This document shows, in pieces, positions 55,630 through 64,000 of a DNA stretch of 64,000 nt. Position numbers and translations under genes: made by a program. How positions within the stretch are numbered: position 1 is the stretch's first letter; the number at the start of each line of letters is the position of its first letter. The notes beneath the pieces are model-generated. The model was not told the origin of the DNA and did no database searches. It worked only from the letters and a program-made list of their open reading frames with translations. The DNA is from Glutamicibacter creatinolyticus (GTDB lineage Bacteria; Actinomycetota; Actinomycetes; Actinomycetales; Micrococcaceae), in the NCBI RefSeq assembly GCF_006094275.1, contig NZ_CP034412.1:1736001-1800000 (forward strand), given 5' to 3'.

Positions 55630-55702
55630 GGGGCTATAGCTCAGTTGGTAGAGCGTTTCGTTCGCAATGAAAAGGTCAGGGGTTCGATTCCCCTTAGCTC
55701 CA
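55630..55702 (+). tRNA. tRNA-Ala (anticodon CGC)
   Basis: A 73-base cloverleaf: acceptor GGGGCTA pairs with TAGCTCC, D-arm GCTCAGTTGGTAGAGC, anticodon stem TTTCG/TGAAA with loop TTCGCAA (anticodon CGC, codon GCG), T-arm with GGTTCGATTCC, discriminator A at 55702. CCA is not encoded. A terminator follows. It stands at the edge of the accessory region and could serve as an attachment site. Confidence 0.93.
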
Positions 55703-55712
55703 CTGCTAAGAA

Positions 55713-56871: not shown

Positions 56872-57306
56872 GTGGGGCTCCTAAAGGCTTACTGCAATCG
56901 AAACGAGACAACTTGTCAACTCAATGGCCTGGTAGCGGAAGCGCAAGCTTCCCTCGGACAGGCTCTACCACTCCGTTCACCATTACCTCGCGGACACCGC
57001 AAGCTTCCGACTCGAACCCAGCAGGAAATCGTGGACAGGTACCAGGCGGGTGAGCGGGTGGTCGATGTCGCTCAAGCTCTCTCGATCAGTAAAACTACCG
57101 TCATCGATCATCTCAACCGAGCAGGCGTTGCGCGTCGGCCTCGTGGCATGAATGACGCACAGACCGACGAAGCCGTTCGGCTCTATGCTTCAGGACAGTC
57201 TCTGGTCCGCGTCGGCGAACGACTCGGCTTTAACACCAGCACCATCCGATCCCGACTCCGGGAGCGAGGTGTCCGTCTTCGTGACGCCCACGGCAGAAAA
57301 CGATAA
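56872..57306 (+). CDS. tandem HTH protein, recombinase-tail-like
   Basis: A 144-residue frame. The last 95 residues contain two helix-turn-helix units: TRTQQEIVDRYQAGERVVDVA with ISKTTVIDHLNRAGV, then DEAVRLYASGQSLVRVGERLG with STIRSRLRERGV. They resemble the DNA-binding tails of serine recombinases and IS-related proteins. The first ~45 residues (VAEAQASLGQA...) look like the linker of such a recombinase, so this may be a truncated recombinase end. No ribosome-binding site is clear; the start is uncertain. Confidence 0.55.
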   Translation: MGLLKAYCNRNETTCQLNGLVAEAQASLGQALPLRSPLPRGHRKLPTRTQQEIVDRYQAGERVVDVAQALSISKTTVIDHLNRAGVARRPRGMNDAQTDEAVRLYASGQSLVRVGERLGFNTSTIRSRLRERGVRLRDAHGRKR

Positions 57307-57726: not shown

Positions 57727-57780
57727 TTCGGTGACCCCGCACACCTCCGGACGAGGTGCAGCACAAGAGGATCACCATCA

Positions 57781-58199
57781 TGACGCACCCCAACGCCACT
57801 AAGCTCGTCCAAGGGCAGCTCTGCAAGCGCCACATCAACCTCGACGACAGCGTCGGTCGCTGGGTCGCCCAGACCGCCCACGTCGCCCCAACGGTCCACA
57901 TCGGCAGCGAGGCAGTGGTCCTCGGCAACGCCCAGATCTCCGGCAACGCCTTTGTCTTCGGCAATGCCCGGATCTCCGGCAACGCCCGGATCTTCGGCGA
58001 TGCCCAGATCTTCGACAAAGCCCGGATCTCCGGCAACGCCCAGATCTTCGACAAAGCCCGGATCTCCGGCAACGCCCAGATCTCCGGCAACGTCTTTGTC
58101 TTCGGCTACGCCCAGATCTCCGACAGAGCCCAGATTCGCGGCAAAGTCCAGATCTCCGGCTACGCCCGGATCCTCGGCAACGCCCAGATTCGCGGCTAG
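57781..58199 (+). CDS. hexapeptide-repeat (YdcK-like) beta-helix protein
   Basis: A 139-residue protein. After ~35 residues (LVQGQLCKRHINLDD...) it is built from about 16 six-residue turns of the form GNA-[QR]-I-[SF] (GNAQISGNAFVFGNARISGN, GDAQIFDKARISG...). These should coil into a left-handed or related beta-helix like YdcK and LbH acyltransferases; no catalytic His loop is seen. The DNA is itself tandemly repeated in 18-base units, so copy number may vary. AGAGG precedes the ATG by 9 bases. It lies beside the Qat operon, on the opposite strand. Function unknown. Confidence 0.8.
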
Positions 58200-58320
58200 A
58201 CGAATTCAGGGGTTCCGGCCGGTGGCTGACCCGCACAGGCCCGCGCCGCGGACTTGTGTGAACGCATTACCGGCATATGCTGAGATGTGCTGTGCTCACG
58301 GCCTCGCACCTGAGCACCCA

Positions 58321-58467: not shown

Positions 58468-59238
58468 CTATCCAACTGCCCCGACCATTCGCTGCACCGG
58501 GCGCGGGAGGAGGGTTACGGTGCCGGTCTCGTGTGCTAGCCTCGCGAAGTTTGCCCATACCTGCGTTCGGATCGCCGTGGTAGGGATACCGTAGATAACC
58601 GCCAGCGACTGCTCGACGTTCATGACCGCCCCTGGCTGGCGCGGAGCGGGCGAATCCCGATCCCCTGACGGGTGATCGGTCTCTGTGAGTATCCGATCGA
58701 GCGGGATGTTTGAGACATCAGCCGGGAACCGCGCCCCAGCCGCGTTGACCGAGAACCAGCATCCGAGTTCCACCGCGCGAGTGGTCTGCGCGGGCGTGCC
58801 GCGCCACCAGTGGAGCACTGCACCCTTGATCGGTGTCTGCTCGAGGGCATGTAGGACGCACTCCGCCAGTCCGGCGCTGTGTATGGAGGCAATACGGGGC
58901 GTGCCCTGCATTGCCTCCAGGATGGACGTGAACACCCGTTCCTGCTCATCGAGAGACACTCTGGAACGCCGGTCCAGCCCGATCTCGCTCACGAACGCGG
59001 TCGAGGGAAGCAGTGAGCTGAACTTCTCTTTGTCGAAGTCGCGATGCGCCGCAGCTACCCCAGGATGGCACCCTACGCCCCAGATGGTGACCTGATCGCG
59101 GCGGGATCGAACGGACTCGTACTCGGACAGTGACCTGGTTGCTGCGAACACGACTGCGCCGAGCCGCTCAAGTTCTGCGGCACTGGTCTTCGGGTTGATG
59201 TGCGCGTGTAGATCGAGCGGGGGAAGTTGTGGAGACAT
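58468..59238 (-). CDS. qatD: QatD: TatD-like metal-dependent nuclease
   Basis: A 256-residue TIM-barrel hydrolase of the TatD DNase family, the fourth component of the QatABCD anti-phage system. Metal ligands are visible: HAH (11, 13), Glu85 in SEIGLDRR, His120 in ASIHSAG, His143 in LHWW and Asp188 in TETDHP. The ATG shares a base with the qatC stop (TGATG). The known function in defence is inferred from family and operon; target nucleic acid is not known from sequence. Confidence 0.9.
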   Translation of the reverse strand: MSPQLPPLDLHAHINPKTSAAELERLGAVVFAATRSLSEYESVRSRRDQVTIWGVGCHPGVAAAHRDFDKEKFSSLLPSTAFVSEIGLDRRSRVSLDEQERVFTSILEAMQGTPRIASIHSAGLAECVLHALEQTPIKGAVLHWWRGTPAQTTRAVELGCWFSVNAAGARFPADVSNIPLDRILTETDHPSGDRDSPAPRQPGAVMNVEQSLAVIYGIPTTAIRTQVWANFARLAHETGTVTLLPRPVQRMVGAVG

Positions 59239-60536
59239 CAGAAGAGGCCTCGCAGTTCCTCGACCCCACGATGCAGCAGGGCGAGCGCATCCTGCGGCGC
59301 ATAGTCCTTGGGCAGCGACATCGCCATGACGTCGCGTGCACGAACACCCTTGTCGACGAAGTCCCGGAGAGGCTCAACGATGGACTTCTGCCGGACGAAC
59401 GTGCTGTACCGACCGCCCTGATCGTTCACGAGATACACGGTCGTGTCGGGGACTCCAGAGGCAATGAAGGCCGCACGTCGGACGAGGCATCCGAAGCACA
59501 CGCCACACGACGAGCCTGCCGGCGCGCCGCTGTAGCGCGCGTCCGTGTGCGAGCAAGAGTTGGTGTTGCTGAGGTAGGTCGAGGCGGCTTCGGCACCGAC
59601 TGCGTCTGCCACGCGACGGAACATCTCGCCCTTGGTGAGCGTCTCGAAGGGGTTCTCGATAAGGCCGTGTCCGCCCACGCTCTGCATCAGCGATGAAAGT
59701 TCGCGGAGGAAGCGTGGGTGGGTGGTGTGCGTCGACAGCGCACCTCGGCGGTCGGGGCCGAGTGGCGGGTTGAGCGAGGCGAAGCCGTTCTCTGGGATCC
59801 AGAGTGTCGATCCAGCGCGTTCAGCAACTGCCAGACCCAGCGCCAGGAAGAGGAGCGAACGTGAACGGGTCGAGGTTTCACTTCGGAACGATGAGCCGTC
59901 CAGACGCTTCGATCCACGATGAAGGTGGAACTGGCGGTGCACCTGACCGATGCCGGGTACCAGGTCAAAGATCGTGCCGACGATACCCTGCTGCACCGGG
60001 GAGATCGCGGTTGAGCTGTATTGCGACACCAATGATTGTGAGCGATCTTTGCCCAACTCAACCGCTGACAGGAGCGCACCAGCGGCAGAGTCGGCACCAC
60101 CGCTCAGGAGTACCGTCCGGTCGTGGTGCTGCTCCTCGATTGGAAGCCCAGCCTCACGGGCATCAGGCGCCTGTGTGAAGCTGAACGACCAGTGGTCGCC
60201 CGATAGGAATCCGACGGTACTGGTCAGCTGCTCGGCATGTGACGCCCAGGCACTGGGATCGCCCACCTCGATAGTGAGCTCGAACTCCCTCGCGTTCCAG
60301 CTCGAGCCACCTGCCTCTCGAAGTACGGAGCGGTCTGCGGCAAGTACCCCCAGGGCGATGCGGACAAGGTCAACGTTGCGCGGATTCACCGTGCCAAGTC
60401 CGGTCAGGTGCGGATCGATGCCGCCTGTGAAGGTTGTACGGCCGCTCCGGGTCCACAGAAACACCTCGTCGAAAGTGCCATCCCGCACGGCGTCGTCAGC
60501 AGTAGCCTCGGAGAGGGTGAGCAAGAGCCGGGTCAT
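59238..60536 (-). CDS. qatC: QatC: QueC-like ATP pyrophosphatase-fold protein
   Basis: A 432-residue protein. The N-terminal ~135 residues are specific to QatC. A PP-loop domain follows with LLSGGADSAAGA (SGGxDS at 145-150), then a zinc-type Cys cluster Cys328, Cys344, Cys347, Cys350 (SSCGVCFGC). QueC makes 7-cyano-7-deazaguanine; QatC is thought to use related chemistry in phage defence, on an unknown target. No queD, queE or queF is nearby, and the operon is qat-like, so tRNA queuosine synthesis is unlikely. It overlaps qatB by 4 bases. Confidence 0.92.
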   Translation of the reverse strand: MTRLLLTLSEATADDAVRDGTFDEVFLWTRSGRTTFTGGIDPHLTGLGTVNPRNVDLVRIALGVLAADRSVLREAGGSSWNAREFELTIEVGDPSAWASHAEQLTSTVGFLSGDHWSFSFTQAPDAREAGLPIEEQHHDRTVLLSGGADSAAGALLSAVELGKDRSQSLVSQYSSTAISPVQQGIVGTIFDLVPGIGQVHRQFHLHRGSKRLDGSSFRSETSTRSRSLLFLALGLAVAERAGSTLWIPENGFASLNPPLGPDRRGALSTHTTHPRFLRELSSLMQSVGGHGLIENPFETLTKGEMFRRVADAVGAEAASTYLSNTNSCSHTDARYSGAPAGSSCGVCFGCLVRRAAFIASGVPDTTVYLVNDQGGRYSTFVRQKSIVEPLRDFVDKGVRARDVMAMSLPKDYAPQDALALLHRGVEELRGLF

Positions 60537-61375
60537 GACGTGACTCCGAAGATCTGCCCGATGTCGCGAATGCCGTTCTCAATAGCCTGCGCCATCTGCT
60601 GTTCGGTCGCACCTAATGGGTTCAGGGTTGCCTGGGCCGCGTACTCCGCTGCGACATCGCGAATCTGACGCTCGAGGCCGCGACGCTTCTCAAAGCTGGC
60701 GTCCTTCGCGTACATCGTCGAGGACACCTCGGTCAGTGCGGTCTCCGCGATCGTCGTCTCGATAGACTTCCTGACGACATCTTCTGGCGTCGGCGGACGG
60801 TCGGCAGGGTGCTCCAGGATCCACTCGACCACGCTTGCGACGATGTCGCGTTCCTCAGCATCTGCGACCGTACTGTCGGCCTGGGACTCGAAGGCAGTCT
60901 CAATGATCTTGAGCCCGATAGCGACGGGATCGCCGAGTGCCTGTAACTCGTCATAATTGAGCCCCGCCTCGCGCAGTGCCGCGCGGTTACCGGACGAATA
61001 GGCAAGCGCCAGCCGTCCGGCCCGTCCGGCCGCGCGCGACACACGTCCCACGGATCGAGTTGCGCCGCCTGACGAACGGCCACCGCCCCCGCCTCGGGCA
61101 CCACCGCCACCTCCGCCCGGGCCGTCGCTCCTTCCACCGCGCCCGCGCGAATTGAGCAGCACCCGGAGCGCCGGGCCGAGGTCAACCCTCGGCGCCTGCC
61201 CGGGAATTCCAGGGCGCTTCGGATCAGAGGGTTGGTCTGCCGCGTCTGTGTTGCCAGCGTTGGTTCCGTCGGTACCACCAGTTTCGTCTGTGGCATCAAG
61301 CCATGCCGCGATATTGTCTCGGAGGTCGCCCGCGTCTTTGCCGCCGCTGCCGCCAAATGAGCCGCTAGTTCCCAT
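60533..61375 (-). CDS. qatB: QatB
   Basis: A 280-residue protein of no known enzymatic fold, recognised by position and pattern. It begins MGTSGSFGGSGGK, has a low-complexity Gly/Arg-rich middle (about 75-110), then a helical C-terminal domain (SSGNRAALREAGLNYDELQALGD ... IGLKIIETAFESQ ... VVEWILEHP). QatB proteins in other Qat operons share the MGTS-start and helical end. The start is ATG 61375 or GTG 61381; either overlaps qatA by 11-17 bases. It probably bridges QatA and QatC. Confidence 0.85.
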   Translation of the reverse strand: MGTSGSFGGSGGKDAGDLRDNIAAWLDATDETGGTDGTNAGNTDAADQPSDPKRPGIPGQAPRVDLGPALRVLLNSRGRGGRSDGPGGGGGGARGGGGGRSSGGATRSVGRVSRAAGRAGRLALAYSSGNRAALREAGLNYDELQALGDPVAIGLKIIETAFESQADSTVADAEERDIVASVVEWILEHPADRPPTPEDVVRKSIETTIAETALTEVSSTMYAKDASFEKRRGLERQIRDVAAEYAAQATLNPLGATEQQMAQAIENGIRDIGQIFGVTS

Positions 61376-63248
61376 TGCCACCCCACGCCTTCTCGACTAT
61401 GCCGACCGACGCCTGGAGCTGTTGGTCGTCCGAGCCAACCTTCCAGGCGTCGAGCACTGGTCGGTAGACCGTCTGATCCAGCGGTCGCAGCTTGATGATC
61501 GTTGCGGGTTCGACGTTCGCTGCGGGAAGTCCCTTGAGCGCCGCAACCACATTCGGTGACGTGCTGGGCTGCTGAGCGGCAAGGCGGAGTATACTCTCAA
61601 CGGCGAACTTCTGCAGGCTCGGTTGGTCACGAGTTCGACGTCCAAGATGGTCGACCAGGATCTGGGCGTCGCCTTCCGGCAGTAGTTTCAGAGTGTCGTC
61701 GGTGACGCCCGCGCGGTCGAGTTTGAGGCTCGAGGTCAGTGCGACCGCAAGGTCGCGGAGACGCTCGGGTAGCCCGGTGTCGATGACCTCGATCTTGGCG
61801 AACGACGCCGCCAGGTAGAGGTACCCCGAGATCGCCGAGGCATCGAGCACGGGTGGGAGCTTTGCCCAGCGTCGCAGTGTGTCGCTGAAGTCGTCGTCAC
61901 GCGAAGGCTCCTGCTCCGGCTGAGCTGCAGCAGACTTCTTCTTGACTGGTAGTGCATTCGGGGACTTGTCCTCGGACGGTTCGGGCGTCGCCTCTTTGGT
62001 CTCCTCAATGCGGCCGTTGGCGGCGATGTCGAGCGCATCGAGTTTGTCGCGCAGCTGGTTCGAGGCAAGCCAGCCGAGCACGGTCTTGAAGTCGTCGGTG
62101 AGGATGCGCTCCAAGACCATGAGCTTGGCAACTGCATCCGGTTCCAGCTTGAACCCACGACGCCGAGCGACTGCCTGGCGCACATTCAGGTCGTTCAGGA
62201 ACCGTTTAATGCGTCGTGGATTGCCATGGAACTTCTCGTAGAGGATCGGCGTCAGTCGTGTGGCAGTAACGAGATGCTCCGCCAGCACGCTGCCTTCCTC
62301 GACCTCCAGGTCGTCCAAGCCGCCACCGTCAATACGCAGTTCGTCGCACCTGGCGACGAAGGCCGCGTATGCCGCCTCGTCGCTGCCAAGCTCGGTCTTC
62401 GCCAATAGCAGGAAAAGATACGCCTCGGTGTCGAATCGGCTCAGCGCGGGAAGCGGGATGGTTGTCTGGACTATCTTGTGCAGATAGAGCTTGGCGGGAT
62501 CCTCGTCCCCATTATTTGGCGCAGCCGTCTTGAACTTCTGCTGAATTGCTTCCGCTACGCGGTCCTCATCGGCCGCGATGACAAACGACATTCCCTCAGC
62601 CGAGAGGAATAGACGGATGGCCTCAAGCGTCTCGACCACGGTGTCTGGGAGACAACGGTCGAGATCATCGACGAGCACCACCACACGCGACAGGTGCCCC
62701 AGCGCGGGATCCGCCAGGAGCTTCCCAAAGTCTTCACGGAAGGCAGCCATGCCCTTCTCGCTGTCGAGGCTCTCGGGCTCATCACTGACGAGCCCGAAGA
62801 CGTCGTCGATATCCGGCAGCTGCATCGTGATAGCAGTCCGCGCTGCCATCTTGACCGCCTTCGACCAGTTCACCTTGCGAACGAGCTTCTTGAAGGCATC
62901 GAGACCGGCCTTTCCGACCGGGTCTGCCTCGTTGAACTTCCTGCCGAGTGCGCCCAGCACCTCGGCGATGAGGCTCTCCTTTGGCCCAACTGCCGGGTCA
63001 TAGAGCCACGGCTGCGTCGGGATAACGAGCACCTTGTGGCCGTTATCCCCCGAACGCGTGGTGATCTCGGACTTGATCAACTCAAGCACGCTGGTCTTGC
63101 CGCTACCCCAAGCGCCGGAGAGACCGATTGCTAAGGGATCGAGCCCGTCGTCGAAGATCGCATCTGCAGCCGTCTCCGCCACGGCACGAAAGGCCAGCAG
63201 ATCCTGAGTTGCCGGTTCATCCGACCAGAGCGGGTAGGACCCGGTCAT
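61365..63248 (-). CDS. qatA: QatA: KAP-family P-loop ATPase
   Basis: A 627-residue KAP NTPase, the motor or sensor of the Qat system. Walker A is GAWGSGKTS (45-53), and Walker B is VVVLVDDLDRC (189-199) with a sensor segment FVIAADEDRV just after. The hydrophobic stretch near 130-145 is short, so membrane insertion as in some KAP proteins is doubtful. The C-terminal half is helical, with a charged linker (EETKEATPEPSEDKSPNALP). Its start overlaps the stop of the upstream restriction gene (ATGA), making one five-gene operon. Confidence 0.9.
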   Translation of the reverse strand: MTGSYPLWSDEPATQDLLAFRAVAETAADAIFDDGLDPLAIGLSGAWGSGKTSVLELIKSEITTRSGDNGHKVLVIPTQPWLYDPAVGPKESLIAEVLGALGRKFNEADPVGKAGLDAFKKLVRKVNWSKAVKMAARTAITMQLPDIDDVFGLVSDEPESLDSEKGMAAFREDFGKLLADPALGHLSRVVVLVDDLDRCLPDTVVETLEAIRLFLSAEGMSFVIAADEDRVAEAIQQKFKTAAPNNGDEDPAKLYLHKIVQTTIPLPALSRFDTEAYLFLLLAKTELGSDEAAYAAFVARCDELRIDGGGLDDLEVEEGSVLAEHLVTATRLTPILYEKFHGNPRRIKRFLNDLNVRQAVARRRGFKLEPDAVAKLMVLERILTDDFKTVLGWLASNQLRDKLDALDIAANGRIEETKEATPEPSEDKSPNALPVKKKSAAAQPEQEPSRDDDFSDTLRRWAKLPPVLDASAISGYLYLAASFAKIEVIDTGLPERLRDLAVALTSSLKLDRAGVTDDTLKLLPEGDAQILVDHLGRRTRDQPSLQKFAVESILRLAAQQPSTSPNVVAALKGLPAANVEPATIIKLRPLDQTVYRPVLDAWKVGSDDQQLQASVGIVEKAWGGNGN

Positions 63249-64000
63249 GTGACCCCTCCTTCTTCACCATCAGCAAGACCGCCAATCAGCAGGCCAGCTT
63301 GGTCCGTTGTATGTTTGTAATCGACCGTACCCGTTGGGGCGGCGTCGAAGTGGCGCTCCGCGAAGCGGATTCGCATTGCTTCGTCCCAGTCGAGATCAGC
63401 GAGGTTGCGGGTGTCCTTGGTTTCGCGGACGAGGTACAGCCGCTGGGTGCCGTTTTCGTTGTAAACGATGGCCCAGTCCGGTGAGTACTCCCCGACGGGC
63501 GTGCGCACTCGGAATCGGCGCGGCAGCTTCGTGAAGAGCCTTACGTGCTCACCGTTGTTCTCGAGCTGTGCGGCAAAGGCGCGCTCGACGTGGCTGTCGT
63601 AGTCCACGTGGTCATAAAGGTTGGTGCCACCCTCCGGCGAGGCGATCACGCCGTTCTTTGGGTCAAGGTCTCCGGGCAGCGGCTGCGGTGGATTCTTGGA
63701 TTCAACCTCGAGGAACACGACTTCAGCGTCCCACCACTCAGATTCATCAATAGGCTCATAATTGATGCCCCGAACCATCTGCTCGATCGTCTCAATGCGG
63801 ATGGCATTCGCCACGATCCGTGCCCAACGATCAGGGTCGTCGAGGACATGCCTGGCGTAATCGCGCCCGGGAAAATTCAGGATCTCGCGTACGATCCCGG
63901 CCACAGTCGGTCGGGTGAGCTGTAGCGGGAATTTGCCGTACTGGAGCTGGTCTTCGATGAGTTGCAGGACGTCCGGCAGACGCTGCCCCACGACAACGAT
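63245..64000 (-). CDS. type III restriction endonuclease Res subunit, C-terminal part
   Basis: 251 residues of a larger protein; the frame stays open to the window edge, and a GTG at 63991 is probably not the true start. The C-terminal nuclease domain is clear: HVERAFAAQLENNGEHVRLFTKLP, then PDWAIVYN and YLVRETKDT, a PD-...(E)xK site typical of type III Res enzymes (cleavage 25-27 bp from unmethylated sites). The ATPase/helicase part and the Mod methyltransferase should lie to the right. It is translationally coupled to qatA. Confidence 0.75.
   Translation of the reverse strand: MVVVGQRLPDVLQLIEDQLQYGKFPLQLTRPTVAGIVREILNFPGRDYARHVLDDPDRWARIVANAIRIETIEQMVRGINYEPIDESEWWDAEVVFLEVESKNPPQPLPGDLDPKNGVIASPEGGTNLYDHVDYDSHVERAFAAQLENNGEHVRLFTKLPRRFRVRTPVGEYSPDWAIVYNENGTQRLYLVRETKDTRNLADLDWDEAMRIRFAERHFDAAPTGTVDYKHTTDQAGLLIGGLADGEEGGVT

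Follow-up and report, generated by a model that had tools for sequence, protein, structure and literature searches.

A Qat defence operon behind type III restriction genes in Glutamicibacter creatinolyticus, a probable member of a set of exchangeable restriction-first operons

Introduction

The Qat anti-phage system of Pseudomonas aeruginosa is the subject of a 2026 paper (PMC13279940). In this system the QatB-QatC complex suffices against phage lambda; essential to it are the ATP site, a pair of QatC threonines and the glycine at the second position of QatB. QatA, which binds DNA in vitro, and QatD are dispensable against some phages. Expression of Qat from P. aeruginosa or E. coli confers defence even with no restriction system linked to it. 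Restriction genes linked to a second line of defence are also on record. In the RptR island of E. coli, DarTG2 lies inside a type I system, with a single, repressed promoter for both, and the same report cites the idea of "guilt by embedding", in which systems lie within other systems (PMC12255303). Here we describe a locus of the actinobacterium Glutamicibacter creatinolyticus (contig NZ_CP034412.1) in which the genes qatABCD directly follow the type III restriction-modification genes mod and res. The DNA analysed, referred to as the window, comprises 64,000 nucleotides (bases 1,736,001-1,800,000 of a 3.31-Mb single-contig genome); coordinates above 64000 are extended window coordinates and denote sequence to the right of its end.

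We propose that these genes form a composite anti-phage operon on a tRNA-Ala island of ~15 kb, and that it belongs to a group of defence operons in which restriction genes come first and the parts can be exchanged. We assign this reading a probability of roughly 0.6.

Results

Organization of the operon

Six minus-strand genes, mod, res, qatA, qatB, qatC and qatD, follow one another in a single run through the window and its rightward extension (Table 1). As deduced from the open reading frames (ORFs), successive genes overlap by 17 bp (mod/res), 4 bp (res/qatA, 63245-63248), 11 bp (qatA/qatB), 4 bp (qatB/qatC, 60533-60536) and 1 bp (qatC/qatD, 59238). An earlier note, made from the sequence of the window alone, had recognized one overlapping minus-strand run at 58468-64000 that includes a type III restriction gene, and the ORFs confirm it. 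The note gave overlaps of 1 to 17 bases. For qatA/qatB, 17 bp arises only from an upstream GTG at 61381; the conserved MGTS start of QatB is the ATG at 61375, and the overlap is therefore 11 bp. The note had also anticipated that the N-terminus of Res lies beyond the window, and to the right of 64 kb we found a complete Res of 931 residues, with Mod upstream of it. The mod product measures 667 residues from a TTG codon, or 660 residues from an ATG located 21 bases further on.

Related restriction genes precede different cargo

Of 216 family genomes searched with the Res protein of the window, four gave a match at E 1e-150 (its own genome, G025, G660 and G726). Two Rhodococcus plasmids, one of which was examined, carry Res at 69% identity. 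Comparison of these loci shows that sister restriction systems precede dissimilar cargo: the Qat operon described here, a different Qat in a sister genus, and a cyclic oligonucleotide-based anti-phage signalling system (CBASS) in a third genus. In G025, which belongs to another genus of the family, Res and Mod are 92% and 82% identical to those of the window, and a 4-bp overlap again joins res to the downstream genes. The corresponding values for the Qat proteins are 45% (QatA), 30-31% (QatB), 48% (QatC) and 48% (QatD), and in the QatC tree G025 and G375 form a fully supported group that is distant from the window. In G660, Res (81%) is followed, after a 4-bp overlap, by a CBASS 4TM effector (2.1e-123) and two cyclases (2.4e-95 and 1.8e-118), the whole island being flanked by a 40-base repeat (88%). 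In G726, Res (70%) is followed by Qat (QatC 62%) and then by the Gabija genes GajA and GajB; the overlap between res and cargo is 8 bp from the chosen ATG. In the Rhodococcus plasmid, a DUF262 protein (HEC-05, 1e-202) is found after a gap of 433 nt.

Qat operons occur behind unrelated restriction systems

By means of peptide patterns of the window QatC, 45 QatC loci were drawn from the genome collection, a set biased to relatives and including several loci cut by contig ends. A restriction operon is present upstream of qatA, on the same strand, in 9 of the 45. The upstream genes are type III or type III-like in two loci (L005 and L006) and type I in seven (L008, L009, L010, L012, L016, L020 and L023). 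Qat operons close to that of the window (QatC 68-88%) sit behind type III or type I systems unrelated to its own. Some loci carry a small YgjP-like, SIR2-like or helicase gene between the restriction genes and qatA. Three additional loci were not counted as operons: L004 features only a remnant of the Res C-terminus (59% identity over 66 residues) that overlaps qatA by 4 bp, L015 an HsdM fragment and L021 an HsdR-like match of 29 bits. The restriction queries used in the upstream scan came from the Qat loci themselves. An independent check with PF01420 identified HsdS matches in 26 of 42 genomes; by manual mapping of coordinates, 7 of the 42 carry the match upstream of qatA, on the same strand and within the locus.

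In the QatC tree, the window falls in a branch of 16 rows, nine with a restriction operon upstream of qatA, one with the Res remnant and six with neither. An even sample of the phylum (396 genomes) was also searched for the QatC family at E 0.001. Matches were obtained in 18 genomes, 11 of which (the window genome included) reach at least 84 bits. The earlier note had regarded the pairing of Qat with a type III system as the peculiarity of the locus. In that form the view finds no support, as both halves have other partners: another Qat, CBASS or DUF262 behind related restriction genes, and type I or unrelated type III genes ahead of related Qat.

Four close relatives carry an ApeA-like fifth gene after qatD (L022:12084-13526, L006:12084-13538, L004:12084-13527 and L123:13941-15398). 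The gene overlaps qatD by about one codon, is broken in frame in L004, and is absent from the window. Actinobacterial-type Qat genes are also found in L013 and L021, contigs titled Stenotrophomonas maltophilia and Patescibacteria, respectively; since L013 also has the rsfS and tRNA-Ala surroundings, mistaken titles or mixed bins are possible. In another Qat lineage (L073, L032 and L041), an ORF of ~1190 residues upstream of qatA, possibly a relaxase as judged by eye, suggests a conjugative element.

Breakpoints at gene boundaries and a shared leader

Homology is interrupted close to the junction of res and qatA. On the Qat side, DNA homology begins between 0 and +15 bp from the qatA ATG in eight loci whose restriction genes differ or are missing; on the side of res, it ends 35-60 bp before the start of qatA in three loci with other cargo. 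G726 matches the window on both sides of the boundary.

About 215 bp upstream of mod, hereafter the leader, are conserved among the window, G025 and L005, although the mod and res genes of L005 are unrelated. A search of the 216 family genomes for the leader gave nine matches, five of which are strong (E 6e-14 or better, G025 included). The four weak matches (blastn, E 2e-5 to 1e-3) were not reported by a hidden Markov model (HMM) of the leader. The resulting set of seven independent loci, including the window and L005, has a restriction operon next to the leader in every case. The leader is followed by III-A restriction genes in the window and G025, by an unrelated type III-like pair in L005, by an SNF2/DrmD-like helicase and another type III system in G705 and G711, and by type I systems in G020 and G714. 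Downstream, G705 continues with qatABCD (QatC 88% identical to that of the window) and an ApeA-like gene, and G020 with a YobI-like ATPase. The first restriction gene begins at the ATG of the leader in three of the seven loci. In the other four, a frame of 27-35 codons begins at this ATG, and its stop overlaps the ATG of the first gene.

An Abi_C gene is common to the 3' ends of G025, L005 (a Microbacterium contig) and G020, with 90-93% protein identity and different contents between leader and Abi_C. In the 1.2 kb that precede the mod ATG, L005 matches G025 at 91% identity, and from Abi_C onward the match resumes at 81%; the interval holds unrelated restriction genes and different Qat operons.

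Other readings of the leader were discarded. A structured RNA was rejected because G025 gave no Rfam match at E values up to 1, fold z-scores were -0.71, 0.52 and -0.32, and covariation lent no support. A plasmid-borne leader was rejected, as no match occurred in plasmids; the 91 stretches retrieved from viruses with a 16-base pattern (best leader-HMM E 0.053) were read as chance.

Directly upstream of the leader lies a minus-strand ORF of 105 residues (68417-68734, extended coordinates), ribbon-helix-helix-like by eye; G025 carries a copy with 83% identity ~5 kb upstream. In the lineage carrying a helicase and type III genes, homology of L123 (4802-5720) with L006 and L122 breaks inside mod only: G705 and L006 share 97% identity in Res and 91% in the helicase versus 64% in Mod, as if the target-recognition part had been exchanged.

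Identity of the restriction and Qat proteins

Res and Mod were identified by PADLOC as REase_III (6.2e-167) and MTase_III (1.7e-130). Res contains the PF04851 helicase and PF19778 endonuclease domains, and the adjoining Mod the PF01555 N6/N4 methylase domain, as expected of type III restriction-modification systems. QatA, QatC and QatD match the PADLOC Qat models (5.5e-81, 4.3e-67 and 1.3e-37, respectively). The same names rank first in NCBIfam, all under the equivalog cut-offs (313.7 of 600, 245.4 of 280 and 140.4 of 230 bits). The HMM search that the earlier note had called for thus assigns the three proteins to Qat families. In Pfam, QatA matches KAP_NTPase (7.5e-45) and QatD contains a TatD domain; the Walker A and B motifs of QatA and the metal-ligand pattern of QatD are visible by eye in the translations.

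Two ordinary assignments were tested and discarded. A queuosine QueC is disfavoured by a Pfam QueC match of only 23.3 bits (cut-off 22) over 68 residues and by the threonine pair T269/T271, which replaces Tyr/Asp. An ordinary TatD is disfavoured by the scores of QatD, 140.4 bits for the NCBIfam QatD model and 68.7 bits for TIGR00010. QatC also matches solved QatC chains (9zee_B, 2.2e-42; 9vlk_A, 1.6e-37). These HMM scores and structural matches bear out the claim of the note that the QueC-like and TatD-like genes belong to Qat, as opposed to queuosine or ordinary TatD clades. The SGGxDS motif and the four-cysteine cluster (C328, C344, C347 and C350), both recognized in the note, are invariant, as are T269/T271 and H273-P274, in 20 aligned QatC proteins. 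The motif list of a second paper agrees with the window QatC (PMC13329287). A type IV CBASS was rejected, as PADLOC detected no CD-NTase or cyclase among the six operon proteins scanned.

QatB had no matches in PADLOC, Pfam or NCBIfam. Residues M1, G2, T3 and S4 are invariant in 23 aligned homologues, and all 43 homologous frames have a candidate start followed by G[T/S/H][S/K] (GTS in 27 of 43), the starts having been picked by the analyst among several in-frame start codons. The AlphaFold2 model (predicted local distance difference test score, 73) contains ten helices. In Foldseek, the hit with the highest probability (0.44) is the QatB chain 9y02_A, with E = 2.1 and template-modelling scores of 0.34/0.42; a sequence search of solved structures found no QatB chain. 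The identity of QatB rests on its position between qatA and qatC, the MGTS start and, weakly, the fold.

A tRNA-Ala island

The operon is located between two tRNA-Ala genes ~15 kb apart (Table 1). Six of the 17 matching genomes of the genus (own genome excluded) were compared. In all six, homology extending from rsfS ends at the tRNA-Ala (GGC) gene, and the stretch between the two tRNA genes has no blastn match. A serine recombinase-like frame was noticed by eye at the tRNA-Ala (GGC) end; no convincing direct repeats flank the island of the window. Qat genes are found at the same tRNA-Ala (GGC)/rsfS site in Propionibacterium sp. oral taxon 192 (L022) and in L013, both without restriction genes. 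Relatives of the small helix-turn-helix ORF on the far side of the island were detected by tblastn in 14 other loci, in several of which they lie just beyond Qat or cargo genes. An array of 18-nt tandem repeats (57842-58219), inside a plus-strand ORF of repeated short peptides (57756-58199), adjoins qatD.

Table 1. Features of the Glutamicibacter creatinolyticus locus. Positions above 64000 are extended window coordinates.
Feature	Position	Strand	Remarks
tRNA-Ala (CGC)	55630..55703	+	left neighbour of island
Helix-turn-helix ORF	56872..57306	+	small; convergent; far side of island
qatD	58468..59238	-	TatD-like nuclease; 256 aa
qatC	59238..60536	-	QueC-like; 432 aa
qatB	60533..61375	-	280 aa; start MGTSGSF
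qatA	61365..63248	-	KAP P-loop NTPase; 627 aa; start codon and res stop share 4 bp (ATGA)
res	63245..66040	-	type III restriction endonuclease; 931 aa; 3' part (63245..64000) in window
mod	66024 to ~68006 (ATG) or 68027 (TTG)	-	MTase_III, PF01555
tRNA-Ala (GGC)	70726-70801		right end of island

Discussion

The gene order leader-mod-res-qatA-qatB-qatC-qatD fits a single operon, in which all genes would be read from the region upstream of mod. The leader may serve as promoter, and the overlaps suggest that production of the Qat proteins depends on ribosomes that finish Res. Co-expression of res and qat, the joint deployment suggested in the earlier note, is thus plausible and likely. As in other members of the family, the type III enzyme would methylate host sites and cut unmethylated invading DNA. 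Qat would form a second layer: with ATP, QatC would activate a substrate and attach it to the glycine that QatB exposes at its N-terminus on losing the methionine. The same N-terminal modification of QatB may be expected in the window because QatC keeps the SGGxDS motif, the threonines, the HP pair and the four cysteines and aligns with solved QatC, and because QatB starts with MGTS. As published for P. aeruginosa Qat, the QatBC complex would then block phage growth, and QatA and QatD would widen the phage range; the conserved residues suggest the same scheme in the window. The earlier view that the QueC-like chemistry of Qat is still open is now partly outdated, since QatBC structures have been solved and the QatB glycine shown to be essential, although the reaction was not reconstituted in the 2026 paper and its exact chemistry is left unresolved there (PMC13279940).

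Control region, restriction genes and downstream cargo would represent separate units, exchanged at gene boundaries among actinobacteria, and the main benefit of coupling would be a shared, ready-made expression for any defence system placed behind restriction genes. The arrangement can be explained without Res and Qat being functionally linked in any direct way. A more specific version, put forward tentatively, is that the leader and its ribosome-binding site form a standard socket. Defence operons might be swapped between the leader and a 3' anchor (Abi_C or, in a second set, the ApeA-like gene), with the frame of 27-35 codons as adaptor in four of seven loci; different phage defences would then come under one common control on arrival.

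The idea of exchangeable restriction-first operons has to be weighed against several observations that count against it. In the 396-genome sample, restriction genes abut qatA in none of the 10 other QatC matches of at least 84 bits, two of which have almost no upstream sequence and one an HsdR-like frame ~9 kb upstream. In the branch of the window itself, six of the 16 rows lack upstream restriction genes. Given the absence of coupling from these 10 matches, and its presence in 9 of 16 rows (plus one remnant) of the branch, the coupling appears to be a habit of one actinobacterial branch and not a general feature of Qat. Overlaps of 1-4 bp are common between co-directional bacterial genes, and some of the partner loci are contigs of metagenome-assembled genomes. 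With G025 as blastn query (E 0.001), the leader of G000 was missed; it turned up only in a longer local search (5.6e-14) and with an HMM in which the sequence itself was included. RNAalifold gave no covariation support for a structure in the leader (term +1.7).

Some of these observations would fit passive clustering in a defence island, in which the genes are chance neighbours on a mobile element, the overlaps reflect genome compactness, and neither control nor function is shared under selection. The location of the genes on an island absent from the six same-genus genomes compared, the rows of the branch without restriction genes and the uncoupled Qat genes elsewhere in the phylum all agree with this explanation. 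We nonetheless consider it rather unlikely, as the same order (restriction first, cargo last, same strand, genes overlapping or nearly touching) is seen again and again with restriction types, and with cargo, that are unrelated, and the conserved leader heads seven of seven such operons. Moreover, only one weak restriction-like match (45 bits) was detected in 19 control regions upstream of Shedu and HamA genes, which correspond to 17 of 19 Shedu and two of two HamA matches from the same 396 genomes, HamA being too rare to serve as a control alone. The control is imperfect, as five regions extend only 3.5-4.2 kb upstream, and the queries, taken from Qat loci, favour Qat-linked restriction genes.

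Explanations that involve a dialogue between the two systems fare worse. Qat could be held inactive by the linked restriction enzyme, or await its failure, and fire when a phage blocks restriction. The precedent of PrrC and EcoprrI (PMC2610378) and the repeated pairing with restriction systems of two types speak for such a guard. We regard it as improbable, given that the partners on both sides have been exchanged without sequence relation, which is hard to reconcile with a specific protein contact, and that P. aeruginosa and E. coli Qat protect without linked restriction. Least probable of all, in our opinion, is a hand-over of DNA ends, in which Res supplies fragments for QatA to bind and QatD to degrade, and cutting thereby feeds the Qat layer. 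The DNA binding of QatA in vitro and the TatD-like nature of QatD fit this scheme, but both proteins are dispensable against some phages, and CBASS, which does not need DNA ends, also fills the slot behind Res.

Exchangeable restriction-first operons, the reading that we favour, would have broader implications. Clustering of defence genes is known; how whole defence systems are exchanged without losing expression is poorly known. Sister restriction systems with three kinds of cargo at one overlapping position, and near-identical flanks around unrelated restriction and Qat genes, offer a testable case of plug-in defence operons, and the leader provides a handle for finding further systems. The locus also warns against concluding, merely from their being neighbours, that two defence systems cooperate. 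In a survey of the literature by title and abstract, we identified no description of Qat-restriction operons or of restriction operons with exchangeable cargo. Close ideas, namely embedded systems, the RptR island and PrrC, are already in print.

Comparison with known systems

The window operon shares with described Qat (PMC13279940) the order and content of the genes, the SGGxDS motif of QatC, Thr/Thr in place of Tyr/Asp, the four cysteines and the MGTS start of QatB. It differs in its NCBIfam scores below cut-off, in a QatB invisible to HMMs and in its predicted translation behind res. In type IV CBASS with Cap9 (PMC13279940), a QueC-like enzyme likewise acts on the N-terminal glycine of a protein. 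The window operon, in contrast, has no CD-NTase, and its QatC carries Thr/Thr instead of the nucleobase-binding Tyr/Asp. As in other type III restriction-modification systems, an N6/N4 methylase (Mod) and a helicase-endonuclease (Res) are encoded in one operon; here, however, res runs without a gap into a second defence operon, which varies among sister copies. PrrC is similar in being a second-line defence gene linked to a restriction system; it is silenced by its own restriction enzyme (PMC2610378), whereas no such contact is indicated for the window Qat. In the RptR island, the cargo lies between hsdS and hsdR and the repressor is encoded first; in the window, the cargo follows the restriction genes on their 3' side, type I and type III systems alternate among the related loci, and at its start the operon showed no RptR-like gene. 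The likeness to the RptR island (PMC12255303) lies in a common upstream control region for restriction genes and another defence system, and in the same control element heading different modules.

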